Source of the DNA: Vulcanimicrobiota bacterium
Lineage (GTDB): Bacteria > Vulcanimicrobiota > Vulcanimicrobiia > Vulcanimicrobiales > Vulcanimicrobiaceae
DNA: 64,000 nucleotides
Direction: 5' to 3'
NCBI GenBank assembly: GCA_003161435.1
Contig: PMOS01000002.1
Coordinates: 1-64,000 of the forward strand
Under the pieces are notes generated by a model. That model did no database searches and was not told the origin of the DNA. It saw nothing but the letters and a program-made list of their open reading frames with translations. Of the stretch, positions 43,240 through 59,330 are shown piece after piece. The position numbers and the translations under genes were made by a program. The stretch's first letter is position 1, and each line of letters begins with the position of its first letter.

Positions 43240-45005
43240 TGGCGGCGCGTGCCTTCGCGCGCGTCGCACCGGTACGGGCGAAGTTCTCGCTCGTCGCGGT
43301 CGTCGCGCTGGCCCTGGTCCTGGCCTGGCGGCTCGGCGACGTGCAGGTGCGCCAAGGACCGTGGCTGGCGCGCACCGCGCTGGCGCAGCACGACGAAGCG
43401 GTCGAATCGTTCGCCAAACGCGGCGCGATCCTCGATCGCGACGGCGGCGTGCTGGTTCGGTCGCTGCCGTCGGAGTCGATCTATGCGGTGCCGGCCGAAG
43501 TGACCGACCCCCACGGCGAAGCGCTCAAGCTCGCGCCGGTGCTCAATGCACCGGCCGCCGGCATCGAAGCGACGCTGCGCGCGAAGGCCGGGTTCCGCTG
43601 GCTCGCGCGCAAGGTGCGGCACGCGGTCGCCGAGCGCGTCCACGCGCTGGCTTTGGCGGGGATCGACACGAAGGGCGAGGACACCGGCCTGCGTTACGTC
43701 GCTTCGGGGCGGCTAGCCTCGACCGTCGTCGGCTTCACCGGCACCGACGAGAACGGCCTCGACGGCTTGGAGTACTCGCTCGACACGCTGCTGCGCGGCA
43801 AACCGGGGCGGATGCTGATCGAAGCCGACCTGTACGGCCACGCCATGCCGTTCGGTCAGGTCCAGGTTGTCGATCGCGCCGTCGCAGGCCGCACGATCGT
43901 GACGACGATCGATCCGTATCTGCAGTTCGAGGCCGAGCGGCTGTTGCGCGCGAGCCTCAAGAAGTGGAACGCCCGCAGCGCGACCGCGATCGTGATGGAT
44001 CCGTGGACCGGCGAGTTGCTGGCGGTTGCGAACCTGCCCGACTTCGATCCCGGCCGCTTCGCAGCGTTCTCGCCGGATAGCTGGCGCGACCGGGCGATCA
44101 GCGACGCATACGAACCCGGCTCGACGTTCAAGCTGATCACGGCGGCCGCCGCGTTGGAGAGTGGGCGCTTTTCGACCGCGTCGCGGCTTCCGGCGCGCGA
44201 TTCGATCCAAGCCGGCGGGCGCACGATCTACAACGCCGAGGACGGGATGATGGCTGCGAACCTCGGCAGCGAGACGATCGAGGATATCATCGCCTACTCG
44301 CACAACGTCGGCGCGGCCGAGGTGGGCATGGCGACCGGACCGTCCGCGATGTACCGGATGATTCGGAAATTCGGCTTCGGCGACCCGACCTACATCGAGC
44401 TGCCGGGTGAGAATTCTGGGATCGTCAACGCGCCGTCGGAATGGAGCGGCTCGTCGCTGGCGACGATCTCGTTCGGGCACAGCATCTCGATCACGCCGCT
44501 CGCGCTCGTGCGCGCATACGCCGCGATCGCCAACGGCGGGCTGCTGTTGCGGCCGCGGATCGTCGATGCGATCGAGGACGGCGACGGCCGGCTCGTCTAC
44601 CGGTACGGCCGCGAGGTGGAGCGGCGCGTGATCGCGCCGGCGACCGCCGCGACGTTGCAGCACTTTTTGCGCGCCGTCGTCCTGCGCGGCACGGGCAACC
44701 CGACCGCGCGCGTCGCGGGCTACACGACGGCCGGCAAGACCGGCACCGCGCAGGTCGTCGAGAACGGCCGCTACCTGCCGGGTGCATACATCGCCTCGTT
44801 CGTCGGGATGATACCGGCCGAGCACCCGCGCTACGTCATCCTGGTGAAGGTCGACCGGCCGCGCGGTTCGATCTACGGCTCGCAGGTCGCCGCACCGGTC
44901 TTCGCCGAGCTCGCGCGCGACGCGATGCTGCACGCCGGCGTGATGCCGGCCAGCCCGCCGGCGCGCTTGGTCCGGGCGGGCCGAGCCCCGAAGGCGAGAC
45001 GTTGA
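43239..45005 (+). CDS. ftsI: septal peptidoglycan transpeptidase FtsI (PBP3)
   Basis: The 588-residue class B penicillin-binding protein has one N-terminal helix, a pedestal domain, and the transpeptidase motifs EPGSTFKLITAAA (Ser295 and Lys298), SHN in IAYSHNVG, and KTG in AGKTGTAQV. It cross-links septal peptidoglycan with FtsW. The start shares a base with the ftsL stop, and its stop overlaps the murE start (TGATG). Confidence 0.96.
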   Translation: MAARAFARVAPVRAKFSLVAVVALALVLAWRLGDVQVRQGPWLARTALAQHDEAVESFAKRGAILDRDGGVLVRSLPSESIYAVPAEVTDPHGEALKLAPVLNAPAAGIEATLRAKAGFRWLARKVRHAVAERVHALALAGIDTKGEDTGLRYVASGRLASTVVGFTGTDENGLDGLEYSLDTLLRGKPGRMLIEADLYGHAMPFGQVQVVDRAVAGRTIVTTIDPYLQFEAERLLRASLKKWNARSATAIVMDPWTGELLAVANLPDFDPGRFAAFSPDSWRDRAISDAYEPGSTFKLITAAAALESGRFSTASRLPARDSIQAGGRTIYNAEDGMMAANLGSETIEDIIAYSHNVGAAEVGMATGPSAMYRMIRKFGFGDPTYIELPGENSGIVNAPSEWSGSSLATISFGHSISITPLALVRAYAAIANGGLLLRPRIVDAIEDGDGRLVYRYGREVERRVIAPATAATLQHFLRAVVLRGTGNPTARVAGYTTAGKTGTAQVVENGRYLPGAYIASFVGMIPAEHPRYVILVKVDRPRGSIYGSQVAAPVFAELARDAMLHAGVMPASPPARLVRAGRAPKARR

Positions 45006-46462
45006 TGCGAGAGACTGCCGGCCTCGTCGCGATCCTCGAGGGCGCCCGGGTCGCCGGCTCGCTGCCCGCCTCGGTCGACGCCGTGGCGAGCGACTCGCGC
45101 TCGGTGCGGCCCGGGACGCTGTTCGTCGCGTTGCGCGGCGAGCGCGCCGACGGGCACGACTTCGTGCGCGACGCGGTCGCCCGCGGCGCGTCCGTCGTCG
45201 TCGTCGACGCGCTGGCGAACGTCGCGCCGGCCGGCGTTCCGCTGGTGATCGTCCCCGACACGCGGGTGGCCGCGTCGGCGCTCGCCGACGCGTTCTACGA
45301 TCGCCCGTCGCAGGCGCTGATCGTGGTCGGCATCACCGGCACCAATGGCAAGACGACCACGACGCACTTGGTGCGCGACGTCCTCGAGGCCGCCGGGATC
45401 CCGTGCGGGATCATCGGCACGCTGGGCGGTCAGTTTCGCGAGCAGCGCTGGGCACTCTCGAACACGACGCCGCTGGCCGTCGAGCTGCACGGGCTGCTCG
45501 CCGCGCAGCGCGACGCGGGGGCGCGCGCGGTGGCGATGGAGGTTTCGTCCCACGCGCTCGCGCTGCGCCGCGTCGATCACGTCCGGTTCCGCGTCGGCGC
45601 GCTGACCAACCTGACCCGCGATCACCTCGACTTTCACGGTACGTTCGAACGCTACGCCGCAGCGAAGCGGCGTCTGTTCGAGCTGGCGCGCGACGCGGTG
45701 ATCAACGTCGACGATCAGTGGGGTGCCGAGCTCGCGCGCAGCCGCTTCGCCGCCGCCTTGCCGACGGTACCGTATTCGATCGACGTCGACGCACCCGGCG
45801 GCTTGCGCGCGACCGATCTGGAGCTCGCCGGCGACGGCTCGATGTTTCGCGCCGGCGGTGCCGTGTTCACCATCAACCTGCCTGGGCGCTTCAACGTGCG
45901 CAACGCGCTGGCCGCGCTCGGCATCGCGACGATGCTGGGGATCGGCGTCGACGACATTCGGCGCGGGCTTGCCGCCACGCGCGCGGTGCCCGGCCGGATG
46001 GAACGGATCGGCGCGTTCGGGATCAACGCGATCGTCGACTACGCGCACACGCCCGACGCCCTCGAGAACGTGCTGCACGCCGCGCGCGAGACGACCAAAC
46101 GCGATCTGATCGTCGTGTTCGGCTGCGGCGGTGACCGCGATCCCGGCAAGCGCATGCAGATGGGCGAGATCGCCGCGCGGCTCGCCGACCGCGTGATCGT
46201 GACGTCGGACAACCCGCGCGGCGAGGATCCGATGGAGATCGCGCTGGCAGTGGCCAACGGCTTCGAGCGCACCGAGATCGAGCTCGACCGGCGACGCGCG
46301 ATCCGCCGCGCGATCGACGGCGCCGAGGCCGGCGATACGATCGTCGTCGCCGGCAAAGGTCACGAGACGTATCAGATCGTCGGGCACGAGCGGCGCTCGT
46401 TCGACGACCGCGATGAGGTGCGCATCGCCTTCGGCAAGCGCGCGGAGTCGGTCCGGCGATGA
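45005..46462 (+). CDS. murE: UDP-MurNAc-tripeptide ligase MurE
   Basis: The 485-residue Mur ligase has the ATP loop GITGTNGKTTTT (residues ~109-120), the central EVSSHALALRRVDHVRF, LTRDHLDFHGT, and the C-terminal specificity motif SDNPRGEDP. DNPR is the signature for meso-diaminopimelate, so the organism makes DAP-type peptidoglycan. The ATG at 45005 overlaps the ftsI stop; the much longer open frame upstream is a shadow of ftsI. Confidence 0.97.
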   Translation: MRETAGLVAILEGARVAGSLPASVDAVASDSRSVRPGTLFVALRGERADGHDFVRDAVARGASVVVVDALANVAPAGVPLVIVPDTRVAASALADAFYDRPSQALIVVGITGTNGKTTTTHLVRDVLEAAGIPCGIIGTLGGQFREQRWALSNTTPLAVELHGLLAAQRDAGARAVAMEVSSHALALRRVDHVRFRVGALTNLTRDHLDFHGTFERYAAAKRRLFELARDAVINVDDQWGAELARSRFAAALPTVPYSIDVDAPGGLRATDLELAGDGSMFRAGGAVFTINLPGRFNVRNALAALGIATMLGIGVDDIRRGLAATRAVPGRMERIGAFGINAIVDYAHTPDALENVLHAARETTKRDLIVVFGCGGDRDPGKRMQMGEIAARLADRVIVTSDNPRGEDPMEIALAVANGFERTEIELDRRRAIRRAIDGAEAGDTIVVAGKGHETYQIVGHERRSFDDRDEVRIAFGKRAESVRR

Positions 46463-47844
46463 AGTTTCCGGTGCACGACGCGATCGAAGCGACACACGCT
46501 TGCGCGATCGATCACGCCGCGTTGCCCGACGAGCTTGCGGTTCGCACCGATACGCGTGCGCTCGAGCGCGGAGTGACCTTCCTTGCGCTGCGCGGCGAAC
46601 GGTTCGACGGACACGCGTACGTCGCCGAGGCGTTCGCGCGCGGCGCGGCGTGCGCGATCGTCGAGGATCCCGGCGTCGTGCCCGCCGGCCGCCCCGCGCT
46701 CATCGTATCGAGCACCCTGCAGGCGTATCTCGATCTCGCCGGCTTGGCGCGCGCGCGCATTCGCGGCACGGTGGTCGGCATCACCGGCAGCACCGGCAAA
46801 ACGACGACCAAGCAGTTCTTGCTCGGACTGCTGCGCGGCGCGGGGATCGCAGCCGTCGCCACGCCGGAGAATGAGAACAACGAGGTCGGCGTCGCCAAGT
46901 TCCTGTGCGGTCTCGACGACGGTGACGAGCGCGTCGCGATCGCCGAGATGGGCGCGCGCAAGCACCGCGATCTCGACGTCCTCGTCGGCGCGGCGCGGCC
47001 CGATGTCGGGCTCCTGACCAACGTCGGCGAAGCGCACCTGGAGATCATGGGGACGCGCGAGCGCATCGCCGACACGAAGTGGGCGCTGCCGGCCGGCTCG
47101 CGCCGCGCGGTGCTGAGCATCGGCGACGAAGTCTCGCGTTCGCGCGCGGCATCGCTGATCGCGCCGGCAATCTGGTACGGCATCGACGGCGAACGGCCGC
47201 CGGCCGGCGAACGCGCGGTGGTGATCGAGCCCGACGCCGTCTGGACGATCGCCGCCGATGGCAGCACGCAAACGCACCGCATCGCGATCGGCTTCCCCGG
47301 CGATCACAACCGGCGCAACCTCGCCGGCGCTTTCGCCGCCGCTCTGTTGTGCGCCGACGGTGCATGGGGGAGCGCCGATCCGGCACGGTTCGCCGGCGCG
47401 GTCGCGTCGCTCGTGCTGCCGCACGGCCGGTACGAGATCGTCGAGCTGGCCGACGGCGTGCGGGTCGTGTTCGACGCCTACAACGCGTCGCTGTCGGGGA
47501 CGCTGGCGACGCTGGGCACGTTCGCGCGCGAGAGCGCGTCGCGCAAGATCGCGGTGCTGGGCAGCATGGCGGAGCTCGGCGGCGACGCGCCCGCCATGCA
47601 TCAGAAGATCGGCGAGCTGGCCGGCCGGCTCGACGTGGTGCTCGCCGGAGGCACCTTTGCGGCCGACACCGCGCGCGGTGTCGAGAGCGTCGGTGGCGCG
47701 GTCGTGCGGTACGCGTCGAACGTCGACGCGGTCGCCTGGCTGCGCGCGAACGTCCGCTCGGGTGATGCGATACTGCTCAAGGGTTCGCGCGTGTACAAGA
47801 TGGAGCAGATCGCCGAAGCGCTCGGCGCGGAGGTCTTCGCGTGA
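46459..47844 (+). CDS. murF: UDP-MurNAc-tripeptide:D-Ala-D-Ala ligase MurF
   Basis: The 461-residue ligase has ATP loop GITGSTGKTTTKQ (~108-120), ENENNEVGVAKFL, EMGARKHRDLDVL, TNVGEAHLEIMGT and a C-terminal domain with FDAYNASLSGTLATL, as in MurF. It adds D-Ala-D-Ala to give the pentapeptide precursor. Starts with ATGA overlap to murE. Unusually, its stop overlaps the start of a CofE-like gene rather than that of mraY. Confidence 0.96.
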   Translation: MKFPVHDAIEATHACAIDHAALPDELAVRTDTRALERGVTFLALRGERFDGHAYVAEAFARGAACAIVEDPGVVPAGRPALIVSSTLQAYLDLAGLARARIRGTVVGITGSTGKTTTKQFLLGLLRGAGIAAVATPENENNEVGVAKFLCGLDDGDERVAIAEMGARKHRDLDVLVGAARPDVGLLTNVGEAHLEIMGTRERIADTKWALPAGSRRAVLSIGDEVSRSRAASLIAPAIWYGIDGERPPAGERAVVIEPDAVWTIAADGSTQTHRIAIGFPGDHNRRNLAGAFAAALLCADGAWGSADPARFAGAVASLVLPHGRYEIVELADGVRVVFDAYNASLSGTLATLGTFARESASRKIAVLGSMAELGGDAPAMHQKIGELAGRLDVVLAGGTFAADTARGVESVGGAVVRYASNVDAVAWLRANVRSGDAILLKGSRVYKMEQIAEALGAEVFA

Positions 47845-48536
47845 TCCCGGTCGCCGTTCGCGAAGCCGGATTGCCCGAAGGGTTGGTCGCGATCCCGGTG
47901 CGCACGCGGCTCGTCATTCCGGGCGACGATCTCGCCGCGCTCGTCGGCGGGGCCGTGCGCGGGATCGCGCGTCCGGGCGATGTCGTCGCGATCGCGGAGA
48001 CCGCCGTCGCGATCGCGCAGTCGCGCTTCATCGCCGCCGAGGCGATTCGTCCGTCGCGGCTGGCGCTGATGCTCTCGCGGCACGCCGGCGCGCTGGCGAC
48101 GATGAGCCAGCCCGAGTCGCTGCAACTGGTGATCGATCAGGCCGGCGTGCCCAAGGTGCTCTGGGCAACGGTCGCCCACGTCGCCGGACGACTGCGCGGC
48201 AAACGCGGTGTGTTCTACGAAGTTCTCGGCGAAGCGATCGCGGCGATCGACGGTTACACCGGGACGCTGCCGCCATACGAGCGGGCGATCGTGTTGGGAC
48301 CGGCCGAGCCGGATCGCGTCGCGACCGAGCTGGCCGCGGCGCTCGGCGTGCACGTCGCGATCGTCGACGCCAACGACCTGCGCCGCACCAAGGCGCTCGG
48401 CGCTTCGCCGCAGCTCGACCGCGCCGGCGTCGAGCGCGCGCTCCTCGGTAACCCGCACGGAAACGGCGACGAGCAGACGCCGCTGGTCGTGCTCGCATGG
48501 CGCGGCACCGGCCCGCATCCGCTGGTGACGCCGTGA
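47841..48536 (+). CDS. CofE-like (F420-0:gamma-glutamyl ligase family) protein inserted in the dcw cluster
   Basis: The 231-residue protein resembles the PF01996 family: IPVRTRLVIPGDDLAALV near the start (compare GDDLAELI of archaeal CofE), a GDVVAIAETAVAIAQSR strand-helix unit, and VAIVDANDLRR near residue 175, where CofE has a TDTNGR loop. CofE proteins join gamma-glutamyl groups using GTP. The RR of the archaeal catalytic loop region and other motifs are only partly preserved, so it may have a different substrate. GTG starts overlap murF on one side and its stop overlaps mraY on the other. F420 synthesis neighbours are absent. Confidence 0.75.
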   Translation: MIPVAVREAGLPEGLVAIPVRTRLVIPGDDLAALVGGAVRGIARPGDVVAIAETAVAIAQSRFIAAEAIRPSRLALMLSRHAGALATMSQPESLQLVIDQAGVPKVLWATVAHVAGRLRGKRGVFYEVLGEAIAAIDGYTGTLPPYERAIVLGPAEPDRVATELAAALGVHVAIVDANDLRRTKALGASPQLDRAGVERALLGNPHGNGDEQTPLVVLAWRGTGPHPLVTP

Positions 48537-49555
48537 GCGACATCGACTTTCGCATGCCGTGGTACGCCATACCGGTCTTCGTCGTGCTGTCGTGGCCGTA
48601 CGGCCTGGGCCTGATGGCGATCGCGCTCGTCGTCGCCGGGCTGCCGGCGTTTGCGGTGACCGCGCTGCTCGGCCGCCCGCTGATCGACGCGTTGCGCCGC
48701 CGAGCGGCGCGCCAAACCGCCTACGAAGACGCGCCGCGAAGCCACCAGGCCAAGACGGGGACACCGACGATGGGCGGGCTCCTGTTCGCGGTCGCGCCGC
48801 TCATCGCGCTGCTGTTGCATCCACGGCGCGACACGTTCGCGCTCGCGCTGCTCGTCTTCGGTTGCATGGCGATCGGCGCATGGGACGATCTGATGGGGAT
48901 CCGGCAGCAGAAGAATCGCGGGTTGCGCGCGCTACCGAAATTCGCGCTGACCGCGGTCGTCGCGCTGGCGTTCTTCGTCGTCGCCGGCCCGCAGCCGATG
49001 GTGCTGTTCCCGTTCGGCCTCGTCCCGGCGTGGTTATGGTACGGTCTCTCGCTGTGCGTGGTGCTCGCGACGACCCACGCGGTCAACCTGACCGACGGCC
49101 TCGACGGCCTGGCCGGCGGCACGATACTGCCGCCGCTTCTGGTGCTGATCTGCGCCTGCCATTTCACCAGCGCATCGATCGGCGTCCCGTTCTTCGGCGC
49201 GGCGACGGTTGGAACCGTGCTCGGCTTTCTGCTCTACAACCGCCATCCCGCGCGCGTGTTCATGGGCGACACCGGATCGCTCGCGCTCGGTGCTGCGCTC
49301 GCCGGCATCGCCATCCTGACCGGGATGCAACTGCTGTTGTTGATCGTCGGCGGCGTGTTCGCAGCCGAGACGCTCAGCGTGATCATCCAGGTCGCGTCGT
49401 ACAAGACGACGCGGCGGCGCGTCTTTCGCATGGCGCCGCTGCACCACCACTTCGAGCTCGCAGGCTGGCCGGAATCGGTCGTCACGACGCGCTTCTGGAT
49501 CGCCTCCCTCGTTCTCTCCGCCTTGGGTTTCGTCGCCCTGATACGGGTCGTATGA
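48533..49555 (+). CDS. mraY: phospho-MurNAc-pentapeptide-transferase MraY
   Basis: The 340-residue integral membrane enzyme has ten or so helices and the MraY motifs: SHQAKTGTPTMGGLLF, WDDLMGI, NLTDGLDGLAGG, FMGDTGSLALGAALA and PLHHHFELAGWPE. It transfers phospho-MurNAc-pentapeptide to undecaprenyl phosphate, making lipid I. GTG 48533 (in VSDIDFRMPWY) overlaps the CofE-like stop. Its own stop overlaps murD by ATGA. Confidence 0.97.
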   Translation: MSDIDFRMPWYAIPVFVVLSWPYGLGLMAIALVVAGLPAFAVTALLGRPLIDALRRRAARQTAYEDAPRSHQAKTGTPTMGGLLFAVAPLIALLLHPRRDTFALALLVFGCMAIGAWDDLMGIRQQKNRGLRALPKFALTAVVALAFFVVAGPQPMVLFPFGLVPAWLWYGLSLCVVLATTHAVNLTDGLDGLAGGTILPPLLVLICACHFTSASIGVPFFGAATVGTVLGFLLYNRHPARVFMGDTGSLALGAALAGIAILTGMQLLLLIVGGVFAAETLSVIIQVASYKTTRRRVFRMAPLHHHFELAGWPESVVTTRFWIASLVLSALGFVALIRVV

Positions 49556-50964
49556 TCGAATCAACCAGCGGTCGCTTCGACCGCACCGACCACGCCCTCG
49601 TCATCGGCCTCGGCCTTAGCGGACGCGCCAGCGTCGAGGTGTTGCGCTCGCGGCTAGGCTCGGTCGTCGCGACCGACGAGGCGCCACCCGACAAGATCGC
49701 CGAAGCGCTCGACGAGCTGCGTACCGCCGGCGTCGCGTTCGTGCCGCCCGACGTGCTCGACGCGGCGCTCGAGCACGTCACGGTCGCGGTGCTCTCGCCG
49801 GGGATCGCGCTCAACAACCCGTTGGTGCGCCGCGTCCAGGCCAAGGGGATTCCGGTGTTCAGCGAGGTCGAGGTCGCCTATCGGCTGTGCCGCGCGCCGA
49901 TCGTCGCGGTGACCGGGACGAAAGGCAAGACGACGACCACGGCACTGGTCGGCGCGTTGTTCACCGCCGCCGGGCGCAAGGTGCGCGTCGGCGGAAACAT
50001 CGGCAACGCGCTGATTCGCGAAACCGCGCAGGCCGACGCCGACGATTGGGTGATCGCCGAGGTTTCCTCGTTTCAACTCGAGTCGATCCGCTCGTTCAAG
50101 CCGCGCATCAGCTTGATCCTCAACATCACCCCGGACCACCTCGACCGCTACCACTCGATGGAAGAGTACGCCGAAGCGAAGTTCCGCATCTTCGCCAACC
50201 AGGGTCCGGGCGACGCGTTCGTGGGGAACCTCGACGACCCGATCGTCGCCGCGGCACCCGGCGAAGACGGTAACCGCATCAAGACGCGCACGTATTGGTT
50301 CGCCGGCGAACCCCATCGCAACACGACCCTGTATCTGCGCAACGGCACGACGATCGTGTACGCGCCGCCGACCGGCGATCCGCGACCGATCGACATCCTC
50401 GGGGTGGACGAAGTTCCGCTGCTCGGTCGCCACAACGTCGAGAACGTGATGGGCGCGGTGCTCGTCGCGCTCGCAGCGGGGCTGCCGATCGAGGCGATCC
50501 GCGAAGGCGTGCGCGGGTTCCGCCCGCTCGGACATCGGCTCGAGCCCGTCGCCGAGATCGAGGGTGCGCGGTACGTCGACGATTCCAAGGCGACCAATCC
50601 CGGATCCGTGATCGCCGCGATGCGCGCGTTCGACCGGCCGATCGTGCTGATCGCAGGCGGCAAGGCGAAAGGGACCGACTTCGCCGAGATGGGCAAGGTG
50701 GTGTCGTCGCGCGCCAAAGCCGTCGTGCTGATCGGCGAGGCCGCCGGCGACATCGCGGCGGTCGTGAAGCGGGCAAAGGTCGAGCACGCGTCCTCGATGG
50801 AGGACGCGGTCGCGCGCGCGCGCGATCTCGCCGAGCCCGGCGACGTCGTGCTGCTCTCGCCCGGTTGCGCGTCGTTCGACATGTTCCAGTCGGCCGAGCA
50901 TCGCGGCGAGGTCTTTGCGAATGCCGTGCGCGCGCTGCAGAACCCGGTCGTGCATGTTCGCTGA
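49552..50964 (+). CDS. murD: UDP-MurNAc-L-alanine:D-glutamate ligase MurD
   Basis: The 470-residue Mur ligase starts with a Rossmann-like domain (HALVIGLGLSGRASVEVLR), then has ATP loop VTGTKGKTTTT (~120-130), EVSSFQLESIRSFKPRIS, LNITPDHLDRYHSMEEY, and C-terminal YVDDSKATNPGSVIAA and LLSPGCASFDMF. It adds D-glutamate to UDP-MurNAc-L-Ala. The ATG at 49552 overlaps the mraY stop; the ftsW start lies inside its last 11 nt. Confidence 0.97.
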   Translation: MIESTSGRFDRTDHALVIGLGLSGRASVEVLRSRLGSVVATDEAPPDKIAEALDELRTAGVAFVPPDVLDAALEHVTVAVLSPGIALNNPLVRRVQAKGIPVFSEVEVAYRLCRAPIVAVTGTKGKTTTTALVGALFTAAGRKVRVGGNIGNALIRETAQADADDWVIAEVSSFQLESIRSFKPRISLILNITPDHLDRYHSMEEYAEAKFRIFANQGPGDAFVGNLDDPIVAAAPGEDGNRIKTRTYWFAGEPHRNTTLYLRNGTTIVYAPPTGDPRPIDILGVDEVPLLGRHNVENVMGAVLVALAAGLPIEAIREGVRGFRPLGHRLEPVAEIEGARYVDDSKATNPGSVIAAMRAFDRPIVLIAGGKAKGTDFAEMGKVVSSRAKAVVLIGEAAGDIAAVVKRAKVEHASSMEDAVARARDLAEPGDVVLLSPGCASFDMFQSAEHRGEVFANAVRALQNPVVHVR

Positions 50965-52111
50965 CGGCCTGCGCGGCAACGCACCACGCCCCTCCGCGCA
51001 GCCGCACGTCCGCCGCGCGACGCTCAAGCCGCCCGACGCGCTGCTACTCGGCTCGGTAGCCTTTTTGCTCGCGCTCGGACTGGTGATGGTGTTCAGCGCG
51101 TCGAGCGCGACGGCGTACTCGGCGTATCACGACACGGCGTATTTTCTCAAGCGCCAGGTCGCGTTTCTGCTGGTCGGTCTGGTCCTGGCCTACGCCGCGT
51201 ACCGCGTCGACTACCGCAAGCTCCCGGCGGTCGCGCCGGCCGTCGTCATCCTGACGGTGGTCCTGTTAGTCCTCACGCTGATCCCGCACATCGGTTTCGC
51301 CAGCGGCGGCGCGCGCCGCTGGATCGGCTTGCGCGCGCTCTCGTTTCAGCCGTCCGAGTTCGGTAAGCTCACGCTCGTGCTGTTCTTGGCCGCAAAGCTC
51401 GCGTCGCTGGGCGAGCGCGTGCAATCGCTCTCGAAGGGCGTTTGGCCGGTCTTGTTCATCACCCTCCTGCTGTCGATCCCGGTCTTCCTCGAGCCCGACA
51501 TGGGTACCGCGTCGCTCTACGTCTTCACCGCGTTCGCGCTGCTGTTCACCGCCGGAGCGCGCATCGAGCACCTGATCATGTGCGGGTTGGCCATGCTTCC
51601 GGCGATCGCGATCGCGGTCGGCTCGTCGGCGTACAAGCGGGCCCGCGTGTTCGCCTTCCTCCATCCGTGGAAGGATCCGCAGAACACGGGCTTCCACATC
51701 GTGCAGTCGCTGCTCGCGCTGGGCAGCGGCGGGGTCTTCGGGTTGGGGTTGGGCGCCTCACGCCAGAAATATTTCTATCTCCCCGAGGCGCACACCGACT
51801 TCATCTTCGCGGTGCTCGGCGAGGAGTTGGGGCTGCTGGGCTGCCTGACGGTGATCGCGCTGTTCGTGCTGTTCGCGATCCGCGCCGTGACCCTCGCCCT
51901 CAAAGCGCCCGATCGCTTCGGGATGCTGCTCGCGATGGGCTGCACGTTCCTGATCGTCATCCAAGCGTTCATCAACGTCGGCGTCGTCACGTCGTCGTGG
52001 CCGGTCACCGGCGTTCCGCTGCCCTTCATCTCGTTCGGCGGCAGCTCGCTGATCGTCTCGTTGATCGCGGTCGCGTTGATCGCGAACGTCGGCCGTCACC
52101 GAACGGTCTAG
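50954..52111 (+). CDS. ftsW: septal peptidoglycan polymerase FtsW
   Basis: The 385-residue SEDS-family protein has about ten helices, starting at DALLLGSVAFLLALGLVMVF, with the family motifs GARRWIGLRALSFQPSEFGK (near the conserved catalytic region), VFLEPDMGTASLYVFTA, FLPEAHTDFIF-like YLPEAHTDFIFAVLGEELG, and GVPLPFISFGGSSL. ATG 50954 leaves a 40-residue cytoplasmic N-terminus. It polymerises lipid II together with FtsI. Confidence 0.96.
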   Translation: MFADGLRGNAPRPSAQPHVRRATLKPPDALLLGSVAFLLALGLVMVFSASSATAYSAYHDTAYFLKRQVAFLLVGLVLAYAAYRVDYRKLPAVAPAVVILTVVLLVLTLIPHIGFASGGARRWIGLRALSFQPSEFGKLTLVLFLAAKLASLGERVQSLSKGVWPVLFITLLLSIPVFLEPDMGTASLYVFTAFALLFTAGARIEHLIMCGLAMLPAIAIAVGSSAYKRARVFAFLHPWKDPQNTGFHIVQSLLALGSGGVFGLGLGASRQKYFYLPEAHTDFIFAVLGEELGLLGCLTVIALFVLFAIRAVTLALKAPDRFGMLLAMGCTFLIVIQAFINVGVVTSSWPVTGVPLPFISFGGSSLIVSLIAVALIANVGRHRTV

Positions 52112-52116
52112 CACCG

Positions 52117-52722
52117 ATGTTCGCCGAACCTCACCGGCCACCGATGAACGACGTCGTCCTTGCCGGGGCCGTGTGCCGGCTGCGTCCGTACCGTCTGTCC
52201 GACGTCGAAGGGCTGCGCGCGACCGCCGACGATCCGCTGGTGTCGCGCTGGCTGACGGCGACGTTTCCAAGCCCGTACACGCGCACCGATGCGCGCGAAT
52301 GGGTGGCGCGGGTCATCGCCGATCCGGTCCCGCAACATTTCGTGGTCGAAGTCGGTGGGTCGTTCGCCGGTGCCGCCGGCGTGATGGCGCTCCACGGCGA
52401 GCACCGTGGTGTCGCCACGTTCGGCTACTGGCTCGGCCGCGCGTTTTGGGGTCGCGGGATCGCGACCGACGCCGCTCGCACGCTGGCGCGTCACGCTTTG
52501 GGAGCGGGCGGATTTCGCCGGCTCGAGGCCGCGGTGTTCGGCCCCAACGTCGCGTCGGTGCGCGTGCTCGAGAAGTGCGGCTTCACGCTCGAAGCGCGGA
52601 TGCGCGACAGCTACGTGCAGCGCGACGGCTCGATCTGTGACGGCCTGTTCTATGCGCGCCTCTCGTGGGACCCCGAACCGCCGCCCAACTCGCCGCAACT
52701 CGTCGCGCCGCGCGCTCCGTGA
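52117..52722 (+). CDS. GNAT acetyltransferase (RimJ/RimL-type) within the dcw cluster
   Basis: The 201-residue product has the RimJ/RimL-type GNAT layout: CRLRPYRLSDVEGL at the start, FGYWLGRAFWGRGIATDAAR with the CoA-binding loop (Gly-x-Gly-x-Ala), and a final ASVRVLEKCGFTLEARMRD. Members acetylate protein N-termini or small amines. The ATG is 5 nt after the ftsW stop, and its stop overlaps the murG start, so it is embedded in the cluster. A second ATG at 52144 is possible. A cell-wall substrate is conceivable but unsupported. Confidence 0.88.
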   Translation: MFAEPHRPPMNDVVLAGAVCRLRPYRLSDVEGLRATADDPLVSRWLTATFPSPYTRTDAREWVARVIADPVPQHFVVEVGGSFAGAAGVMALHGEHRGVATFGYWLGRAFWGRGIATDAARTLARHALGAGGFRRLEAAVFGPNVASVRVLEKCGFTLEARMRDSYVQRDGSICDGLFYARLSWDPEPPPNSPQLVAPRAP

Positions 52723-57671: not shown

Positions 57672-59330
57672 TTGGGCGGCGAAGCGCTCGACTACGGTGG
57701 CCGGCGTGCAACCTCGCACATCCCGACCCACCGAGCCCGCCGTCTGGGAGCGAAGGCCGTTCCGAATCAGCGTACTCTCGGGGGCCAGCGAGCCACGTTC
57801 TCGTCAGCGCGGCAGGCCTTTCTCGACGGAGACTTCGAGCAGTGCCTGGCAGCGTGCGACGCCATCGCCCTGCACGACGATACCATCCGGTACGACGTGG
57901 CGCTGCTCCGCGCTCGCGTGCTGCTGCGCTTGGGCCGCGCTGACAAGGCCATCGACGCTTTGCGGGCATGCGCGTACACGCCGACGTCATTGGATCCGTA
58001 CGTGACGGCGCAGATGCTCCTGGGGGCCTCGTACGTTCGTCTCGGACAAGTCGAGCGCGGCGAAGCCCTGCTGGCCGAAGCCTCCACGATGGCGCACAGT
58101 GCCCATCCGACCATCCGGGCCGAGCTCGCGGTGAATCTCGGGATCGCGCGCTTTCAGCTGCACCGCTACGAAGAAGCCGAGGCGCAGCTGTCGGCGGTCG
58201 ATCCCGCTTCGGACATCATCCATGCACGCGCCGTGCAGTACCTGGCGTGGGTGTCGTTCGCCCGCGGCGACTTCGCCGTCGCGGCCGAGCGTTTTCGCAG
58301 CTCGCTCCGCGCGCTGGCCGCCTGCAAGCACCACGACCGTTACGTCGAGGCCAACGTGCTGCAGGGCCTCACGGCGCTCTCGGCCGAGTTGCTTCAGGCC
58401 GAAGGATGGCCGTCGCTGCAGAGGAGCATCCGCGCGTTTGACTGGACGCGCGACGGGCTCGCGCGCCCGCGGTTCTGGGTCGCCATTTTCGCGTCGATCA
58501 TGTGCGAGATCAGCGGCGACGCCGCCGGTGCTCGCACGTGGGCGCGCGACGCCGAGTCGGCTGCCGCAACGACGGCCTATCGCATCCTCGCGCAGTGCCG
58601 CATGGCCGGGGTGTTCCGCGGGTTGCAGGAGTGGGGAGCGCACCGCGAGTTCGTCGATCGCGCGAAAGAGCTGCACGCGACGCTGAGCGTCGTGGACCTC
58701 GGCGACGATCAGAAGCAGCTCCCGCTGTTCCTCGCCGAAGAGATGGCGCATGCCGGGATGGATGAGGGCGCGGCGCTTCTCATGTCCCAATATCGAGACG
58801 TGATCGCGCCGACGCTCCGCGCCTCGCCCGGCGACGAGCGCTACGCCGCCGTCGAGAGCGGCGTCGAAGGATTCGTGCGCGAAGCCGCGGGCGACTACAA
58901 GGCGGCGATCCGGCTCTTCTCGTCGGCGTTGCGCTTGCTCAAGAAGGCGCGGTACCGCCGGCGCGCAAGCGAGATCGCGCTGCGTCTTGCTCGCCTCACC
59001 GGCGCGAAGCGCTATGTCGACTACGCGACCAAGACGCTCGAAGGCGTCAACGCGTCGTATTGGATGGTCGTGCAACTCCGCGAGCTCGAGTCGTCGCGCG
59101 GTCCGAGCTTGACCGAAACCGAGAAGGCGATCCTCACGCTGTTGGTGCGTGGCCGAGCGTACAAAGAGATCGCCGCCGCGCGACGCAGCTCGTGGAAGAC
59201 CGTCGCCAACCACGTCCAGATGCTGTTCCGCAAGTTCGACGTCAACAGCCGCGGTCAGTTGGCGGCCGAAGCGCTGCGCCTCGGTCTGGTCGCCTTGCAC
59301 GATGGGACGGAATCGAACCGTGGTACTTAG
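57672..59330 (+). CDS. TPR-containing LuxR-family regulator
   Basis: The ~550-residue product has a long helical tetratricopeptide-like region (LDGDFEQCLAACDAIALHD, LLRARVLLRLGRADKAIDAL, LNLGIARFQLHRYEEAEAQL-like repeats) and a C-terminal LuxR helix-turn-helix (LTETEKAILTLLVRGRAYKE, then WKTVANHVQMLFRKFDVNSRG). Unlike the large LuxR regulator at 8591-11365 there is no ATPase. TTG 57672 is the longest start; the first certain helix begins near residue 45, so the true start could be later. Its input signal is not evident. Confidence 0.8.
   Translation: MGGEALDYGGRRATSHIPTHRARRLGAKAVPNQRTLGGQRATFSSARQAFLDGDFEQCLAACDAIALHDDTIRYDVALLRARVLLRLGRADKAIDALRACAYTPTSLDPYVTAQMLLGASYVRLGQVERGEALLAEASTMAHSAHPTIRAELAVNLGIARFQLHRYEEAEAQLSAVDPASDIIHARAVQYLAWVSFARGDFAVAAERFRSSLRALAACKHHDRYVEANVLQGLTALSAELLQAEGWPSLQRSIRAFDWTRDGLARPRFWVAIFASIMCEISGDAAGARTWARDAESAAATTAYRILAQCRMAGVFRGLQEWGAHREFVDRAKELHATLSVVDLGDDQKQLPLFLAEEMAHAGMDEGAALLMSQYRDVIAPTLRASPGDERYAAVESGVEGFVREAAGDYKAAIRLFSSALRLLKKARYRRRASEIALRLARLTGAKRYVDYATKTLEGVNASYWMVVQLRELESSRGPSLTETEKAILTLLVRGRAYKEIAAARRSSWKTVANHVQMLFRKFDVNSRGQLAAEALRLGLVALHDGTESNRGT

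Follow-up and report, generated by a model that had tools for sequence, protein, structure and literature searches.

A lipid intermediate:cadaverine transferase activity of Selenomonas ruminantium was reportedly defined biochemically by Kamio, and we know of no sequence for that enzyme. MurT/GatD modifies the alpha-carboxyl of D-Glu in peptidoglycan precursors, using glutamine-derived ammonia. In those Negativicutes that have been studied, the alpha-carboxyl of D-Glu in the peptidoglycan bears polyamines, and these polyamines hold the outer membrane via OmpM (PMC10628300). We found no gene named for peptidoglycan polyamination in the open-access literature, which included parts of PMC10628300 and PMC12826042 and left subscription papers and preprints outside its coverage. 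CofE, the coenzyme F420-0:L-glutamate ligase, has an origin that a review calls unclear (PMC8498797), and CT611 of Chlamydia, a member of COG1478, stands in for FolC (PMC1971073). Here we describe a CofE-like gene, X, in the division and cell wall (dcw) cluster of a Vulcanimicrobiota bacterium (assembly GCA_003161435.1, contig PMOS01000002.1, positions 1 to 64,000; this whole stretch of 64,000 nt is the window). We propose, with a probability of roughly 0.57, that X forms an amide between a small amine, in all likelihood a polyamine such as cadaverine, putrescine or agmatine, and one of the carboxylates of a peptidoglycan precursor, most likely the D-Glu alpha-carboxyl.

X (47841..48536) encodes a predicted amide ligase of 231 aa, running from a GTG start to a TGA stop (48534-48536); X, its start and stop overlaps, murE, murF, mraY and murD all lie on the + strand. 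A Shine-Dalgarno-like GGAGGT box (47829..47834) precedes the GTG by 6 nt on that strand. The gene shares a GTGA with each neighbour: at 47841..47844 the murF stop (TGA, 47842-47844) overlaps the X start, and at 48533..48536 the X stop overlaps the GTG start of mraY, for which an alternative in-frame ATG at 48497 would give an overlap of 40 nt. The product of murF (46459..47844) scores 281.4 bits against TIGR01143, just missing the cut-off of 288.6, with PF08245, PF02875 and PF01225 over cut-off; that of mraY (48533..49555) scores 274.5 bits against TIGR00445 (cut-off 192.05) and matches PF00953. The open reading frame and its two overlaps, as claimed in the original prediction, are thereby confirmed. 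The arrangement also recurs in the lineage. In families f1-f3, which make up the class of the window, 104 genomes gave a match and 75 loci were fetched; the order murF-X-mraY is found in 73 of the 75 loci, and in the other two a contig end removes one neighbour. Because this order recurs so regularly, the placement of X is not due to chance.

X matches PF01996 at 46.5 bits (gathering score 25; E 4.2e-12), with residues 20-101 aligned to positions 2-81 of the 218 in the model, and no other Pfam family matches it at E <= 1; the family likeness first read from the sequence is therefore sound. Structure prediction gives X a CofE fold over its full length. The CofE equivalog models score it far under their cut-offs (TIGR01916, 28.3 versus 180.65 bits; NF009809, 29.1 versus 274 bits), and the motifs of the phylum's own CofE (THK..SKAEGR, ANAGxD.SN and DSFGR.WR.G) are not kept in X in alignments A2 and A3 or in the profile comparison. 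The original prediction read the catalytic loop as only partly conserved; the active-site signature of X differs from that of CofE, yet 17 positions are invariant across all 74 aligned X sequences, which come from several phyla, E53, D137 and D176 being among them. X is likely a nucleotide-dependent amide ligase, with a predicted CofE fold.

A scan of public genomes yielded 274 stretches that encode a relative of X, of which the best 80 were kept. Negativicutes-type loci make up 36 of these 80 (33 with Negativicutes names and three named Bacillota only), and all 36 have a partner domain directly upstream of X, normally encoded by a separate gene and fused to X in L162; the partner domain has a predicted membrane anchor in many lineages. 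The glutamate racemase gene murI lies at most 1.3 kb upstream of X in 20 of the 36, two of which hold less than 1.1 kb of upstream sequence (MurI over cut-off was checked in L165 and L148). Neighbours were counted on the X strand within 2.5 kb of X, by frame-independent searches of 235 X loci; the two later class searches contributed the best 30 loci each, and some genomes were fetched twice (L146/L205, L149/L197, L143/L235, L151/L227, and L032-L051 partly again among L112-L135). On this basis Amidase_3 adjoins X in 40 loci, murI in 20 and ddl in two. Amj, of the lipid II flippase family, appears in L219, where the order is L,D-transpeptidase, Amj, X and PvlArgDC. An Amidase_3-X fusion, detected with Pfam, is followed in L160 by a polysaccharide/MurJ-type flippase; by phmmer, Amidase_3 (N-acetylmuramoyl-L-alanine amidase) and X also share one frame in L231-L233. 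If X is cytosolic, the amidase domain of such fusions would be cytosolic too. The family thus adjoins five kinds of peptidoglycan gene (murF/mraY, murI, ddl, Amidase_3 and Amj), which suggests that X acts on a peptidoglycan precursor and supports the earlier proposal of a CofE-like ligase with a new substrate in wall synthesis.

Amine-forming decarboxylases also recur beside X: OKR_DC in 28 and PvlArgDC in 12 of the 235 loci, with four further PvlArgDC genes on the opposite strand beside a partner-X pair (L136, L145, L147 and L151). As a control, all 10 decarboxylase matches of at least 50 bits in the 80 scan loci (1.23 Mb) fall within 900 nt of X. Pfam confirmed PF01276/PF03711 or PF01862 in the examples checked; in L229-L244 the OKR_DC gene upstream of X runs off the end of the fetched flank, and the C-terminal domain served to check two of these. 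Loci within one lineage are related, such that these are not independent counts. The decarboxylases belong to two unrelated folds and occur in at least five arrangements, a variety suggesting to us that an amine supplier was recruited more than once. It is this recurrence that points to a (poly)amine as the co-substrate of X. In L144, L159 and L190, a MerR-type regulator and a glutamine synthetase are encoded upstream of X and OKR_DC downstream (one of each identified with Pfam, the rest by cluster).

By analogy with CofE, GTP or ATP together with two divalent metals would phosphorylate the carboxylate, and the amine would then attack the acyl phosphate (PMC10861534). The acceptor would be UDP-MurNAc-pentapeptide, between MurF and MraY, or lipid I/II, with a lipid-linked acceptor favoured in the partner-bearing lineages because of the predicted membrane anchor. 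We infer the catalysis, the amine, the acceptor carboxylate and the form of the acceptor alike. In Negativicutes, X would put polyamines on D-Glu and so would make the ligand of the outer-membrane tether OmpM. The functional guess of the original prediction survives in so far as it made X a ligase of wall precursors; its amidation or gamma-glutamyl addition is not our first choice, since the neighbouring decarboxylases suggest a (poly)amine. We hold more tentatively, at slightly under even odds, the broader proposal that the missing ligase for peptidoglycan polyamination is X, as an ancient branch of the CofE fold that places cadaverine, putrescine or agmatine on D-Glu as a trait of whole lineages.

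PF01996 is matched in 132 of 149 Vulcanimicrobiota genomes and X is present in at least 131, a minimum since X scores poorly against the Pfam model. Relatives in the public-genome scan come from Negativicutes (Veillonella, Selenomonas, Megasphaera, Dialister, Sporomusa and others), and beyond them from Syntrophomonadaceae, Pelotomaculum, Symbiobacterium, Sericytochromatia and some Actinomycetota; neither E. coli nor B. subtilis gave a PF01996 match. Profile searches found X in 195 of the 200 genomes that share a class with Veillonella montpellierensis (Negativicutes, as inferred from the named record of L148), in 46 of 113 genomes of Pelotomaculum's class (five of the 46 weaker than 1e-20) and, with several subfamilies, in 73 of 101 genomes from the class that includes the Symbiobacterium record (12 of the 73 weaker than 1e-20). 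In a tree with 74 rows for X and 16 for CofE, the two are split with an SH-aLRT support of 100. The partner-bearing rows cluster together (support 98), including L161, for which no partner domain was detected. Outside this cluster branch the dcw form and several clostridial forms that likewise have no detected partner domain. The root within X is uncertain: 36 of the 87 inner branches are weak, the branch that sets the dcw group apart reaches a support of 23, and a very long branch leads to the root.

Several observations weigh against a polyamine ligase of the wall. Neither the 75 dcw loci (326 kb) nor the 36 Negativicutes-type loci showed an OKR_DC or PvlArgDC in the neighbourhood of X, and it is therefore other lineages that support the amine link; in addition, the decarboxylase queries were drawn from loci of the same set and covered these folds only. 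The window genome, which is 83% complete, has an OKR_DC match under the cut-off only; OKR_DC is present in 9 of 10 same-genus genomes and over cut-off in 137 of the 149 phylum genomes. X was not found by profile search in 5 of the 200 Negativicutes genomes. K33, K37 and E39 of CofE (A2 numbering) are substituted in X, and the paired residue differs between the profile alignments of X and CofE. Finally, SLH domains are present in 92 of the 149 phylum genomes, and hence no tie between X and an SLH tether holds across the phylum. As a separate observation, contig C34 of the window genome encodes an SLH-domain protein (L193:5-2506) that scores 72.7 bits against an iron uptake porin model with a cut-off of 100 and that may serve this organism as a tether of the OmpM type.

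According to the main rival, X acts on the precursor with ammonia, or with an amino acid such as glycine, as nucleophile, giving D-isoglutamine or an amino-acid branch; we consider this unlikely, at about one chance in five. MurT_C was matched in 1 of the 149 phylum genomes, and a search of 20 Negativicutes-type genomes found none, which leaves room for a replacement; the one match in the phylum is on contig C17 of a same-genus genome, G125. In two fetched relatives from a sister subfamily (L253 and L256), X is fused to a C-terminal asparagine synthetase domain, which would fit ammonia, counts against a polyamine, and suggests a variant with an amino acid or ammonia as its substrate. The search of the Symbiobacterium class showed further frames of this kind, about 900 aa long. 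Glycine on the D-Glu alpha-carboxyl is recorded in Intrasporangium (PMC3035309, in the part available). Set against an ammonia or amino-acid ligase are the families of cadaverine-, putrescine- or agmatine-making decarboxylases that recur beside X, and the polyamines at the very same carboxyl in the studied Negativicutes (PMC10628300). MurT is also already present in 10 of the 37 X genomes outside the phylum, all of them Bacillota other than Negativicutes. This cuts both ways, since D-Glu is perhaps already amidated in those 10 genomes.

That X is a non-catalytic scaffold or regulator tying MurF to MraY seems improbable. Its overlaps with both neighbouring genes and the fading of its PF01996 likeness past residue 101 would suit such a role; the 17 invariant positions, and the occurrence of the family outside the dcw cluster beside decarboxylases, would not. 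We regard as very improbable that X is a second folylpolyglutamate synthase (FolC2), for which CT611 offers a precedent: FolC is present in the window genome (E 4e-95) and in 123 of the 149 phylum genomes, and the folate-ligase model TIGR04132, which canonical CofE matches weakly, does not match X at E <= 1. Some deep families that hold X gave no FolC match at E 1e-20, which would favour that function.

The original prediction also allowed that X might couple production of an F420-like cofactor to wall synthesis. X is the only PF01996 match in the window genome, and the CofD-family (PF01933) match there is YvcK (383 bits against TIGR01826; 24 versus 257 bits for F420_cofD). CofH was not found over its cut-off in this 83% complete genome (best 309.2 versus 374.1 bits), CofC and CofG lying outside the search. 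Across the 149 genomes of the phylum, families f13-f16 account for all 13 in which CofH is over cut-off and for the 16 that have canonical CofE (E 6e-62 to 6e-69); in one of these, G133, CofE adjoins a true CofD, both over equivalog cut-offs. In 15 of the 16, canonical CofE coexists with X, a second, weaker match. None of the three findings that the original prediction had set against itself was made, as X recurs in the dcw cluster of relatives, scores against PF01996, and did not turn up as the ordinary CofE of a full F420 pathway. Despite its PF01996 match, its predicted CofE fold and the several close relatives that carry the database name coenzyme F420-0:L-glutamate ligase, we give almost no credence to X as an ordinary F420-0:L-glutamate ligase or as a link between F420 and the wall, which its equivalog scores of 28-29 bits, the restricted CofH, YvcK and the coexistence with CofE already contradict.

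Other genes accompany X or its cluster. In the window, murE (45005..46462) and murD (49552..50964), taken from the list of open reading frames and named from their sequence, served as neighbour queries. A GNAT acetyltransferase gene (52108-52722; PF13302, 95 bits) lies between genes read as ftsW and murG, and downstream of a gene read as ddl, 57672-59330 encodes a TPR protein that ends in a LuxR-type (GerE) helix-turn-helix. In deep Vulcanimicrobiota, a protein of about 570-640 aa (the L047:7113-9035 cluster) is encoded divergently beside X, at position -1 in 21 of 83 loci, and Pfam gave no family over cut-off for the L047 protein. A beta-N-acetylglucosaminidase gene is found directly 3' of X in Selenomonadales-type loci (L162, L167, L170, L172, L176, L178, L183 and L188, with PF07555 in L188). 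Genes of the hydantoinase/oxoprolinase type and of the histone-deacetylase family follow X in L165 (11134-14101) and other Negativicutes loci; the histone-deacetylase family includes acetylpolyamine hydrolases.

X is a concrete candidate for wall polyamination that comes with a partner protein and amine-supply genes. If our proposal is correct, the enzyme behind polyamine-decorated walls gets a name, and such walls would reach Vulcanimicrobiota, clostridial spore formers and early relatives of cyanobacteria, rather than being a mere curiosity of Negativicutes, with polyamination built into the dcw operon in one lineage. F420 tail synthesis would be the cofactor-making cousin of a wall enzyme, such that X would bear on the origin of CofE, and many database entries named coenzyme F420-0:L-glutamate ligase would need correction.

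Among known systems, the closest is CofE, or the N-domain of FbiB (PF01996; TIGR01916; PDB 2phn and 7uld). X differs from it in falling under the equivalog cut-offs, in forming a separate clade, in lacking ANAGxD, with signatures that end in GT.PP, D.NDL and NP.GN....TP, and in having peptidoglycan-gene and amine-gene neighbours. FolC2 is, like X, a CofE relative taken up by another pathway; its context is folate, whereas the genome of the window has FolC and X gives no TIGR04132 match. MurT/GatD shares with X, as we propose it, the target, the D-Glu alpha-carboxyl of a peptidoglycan precursor, and differs in being of the Mur-ligase type with MurT_C, while X matches no MurT domain. The activity described by Kamio is defined by biochemistry, with no link to X, and X in its dcw form lacks a membrane domain; nevertheless, that activity would yield the same D-Glu alpha-amide with a polyamine as in the studied Negativicutes, and X is nearly universal in that class, where its partner domain has a predicted membrane anchor.
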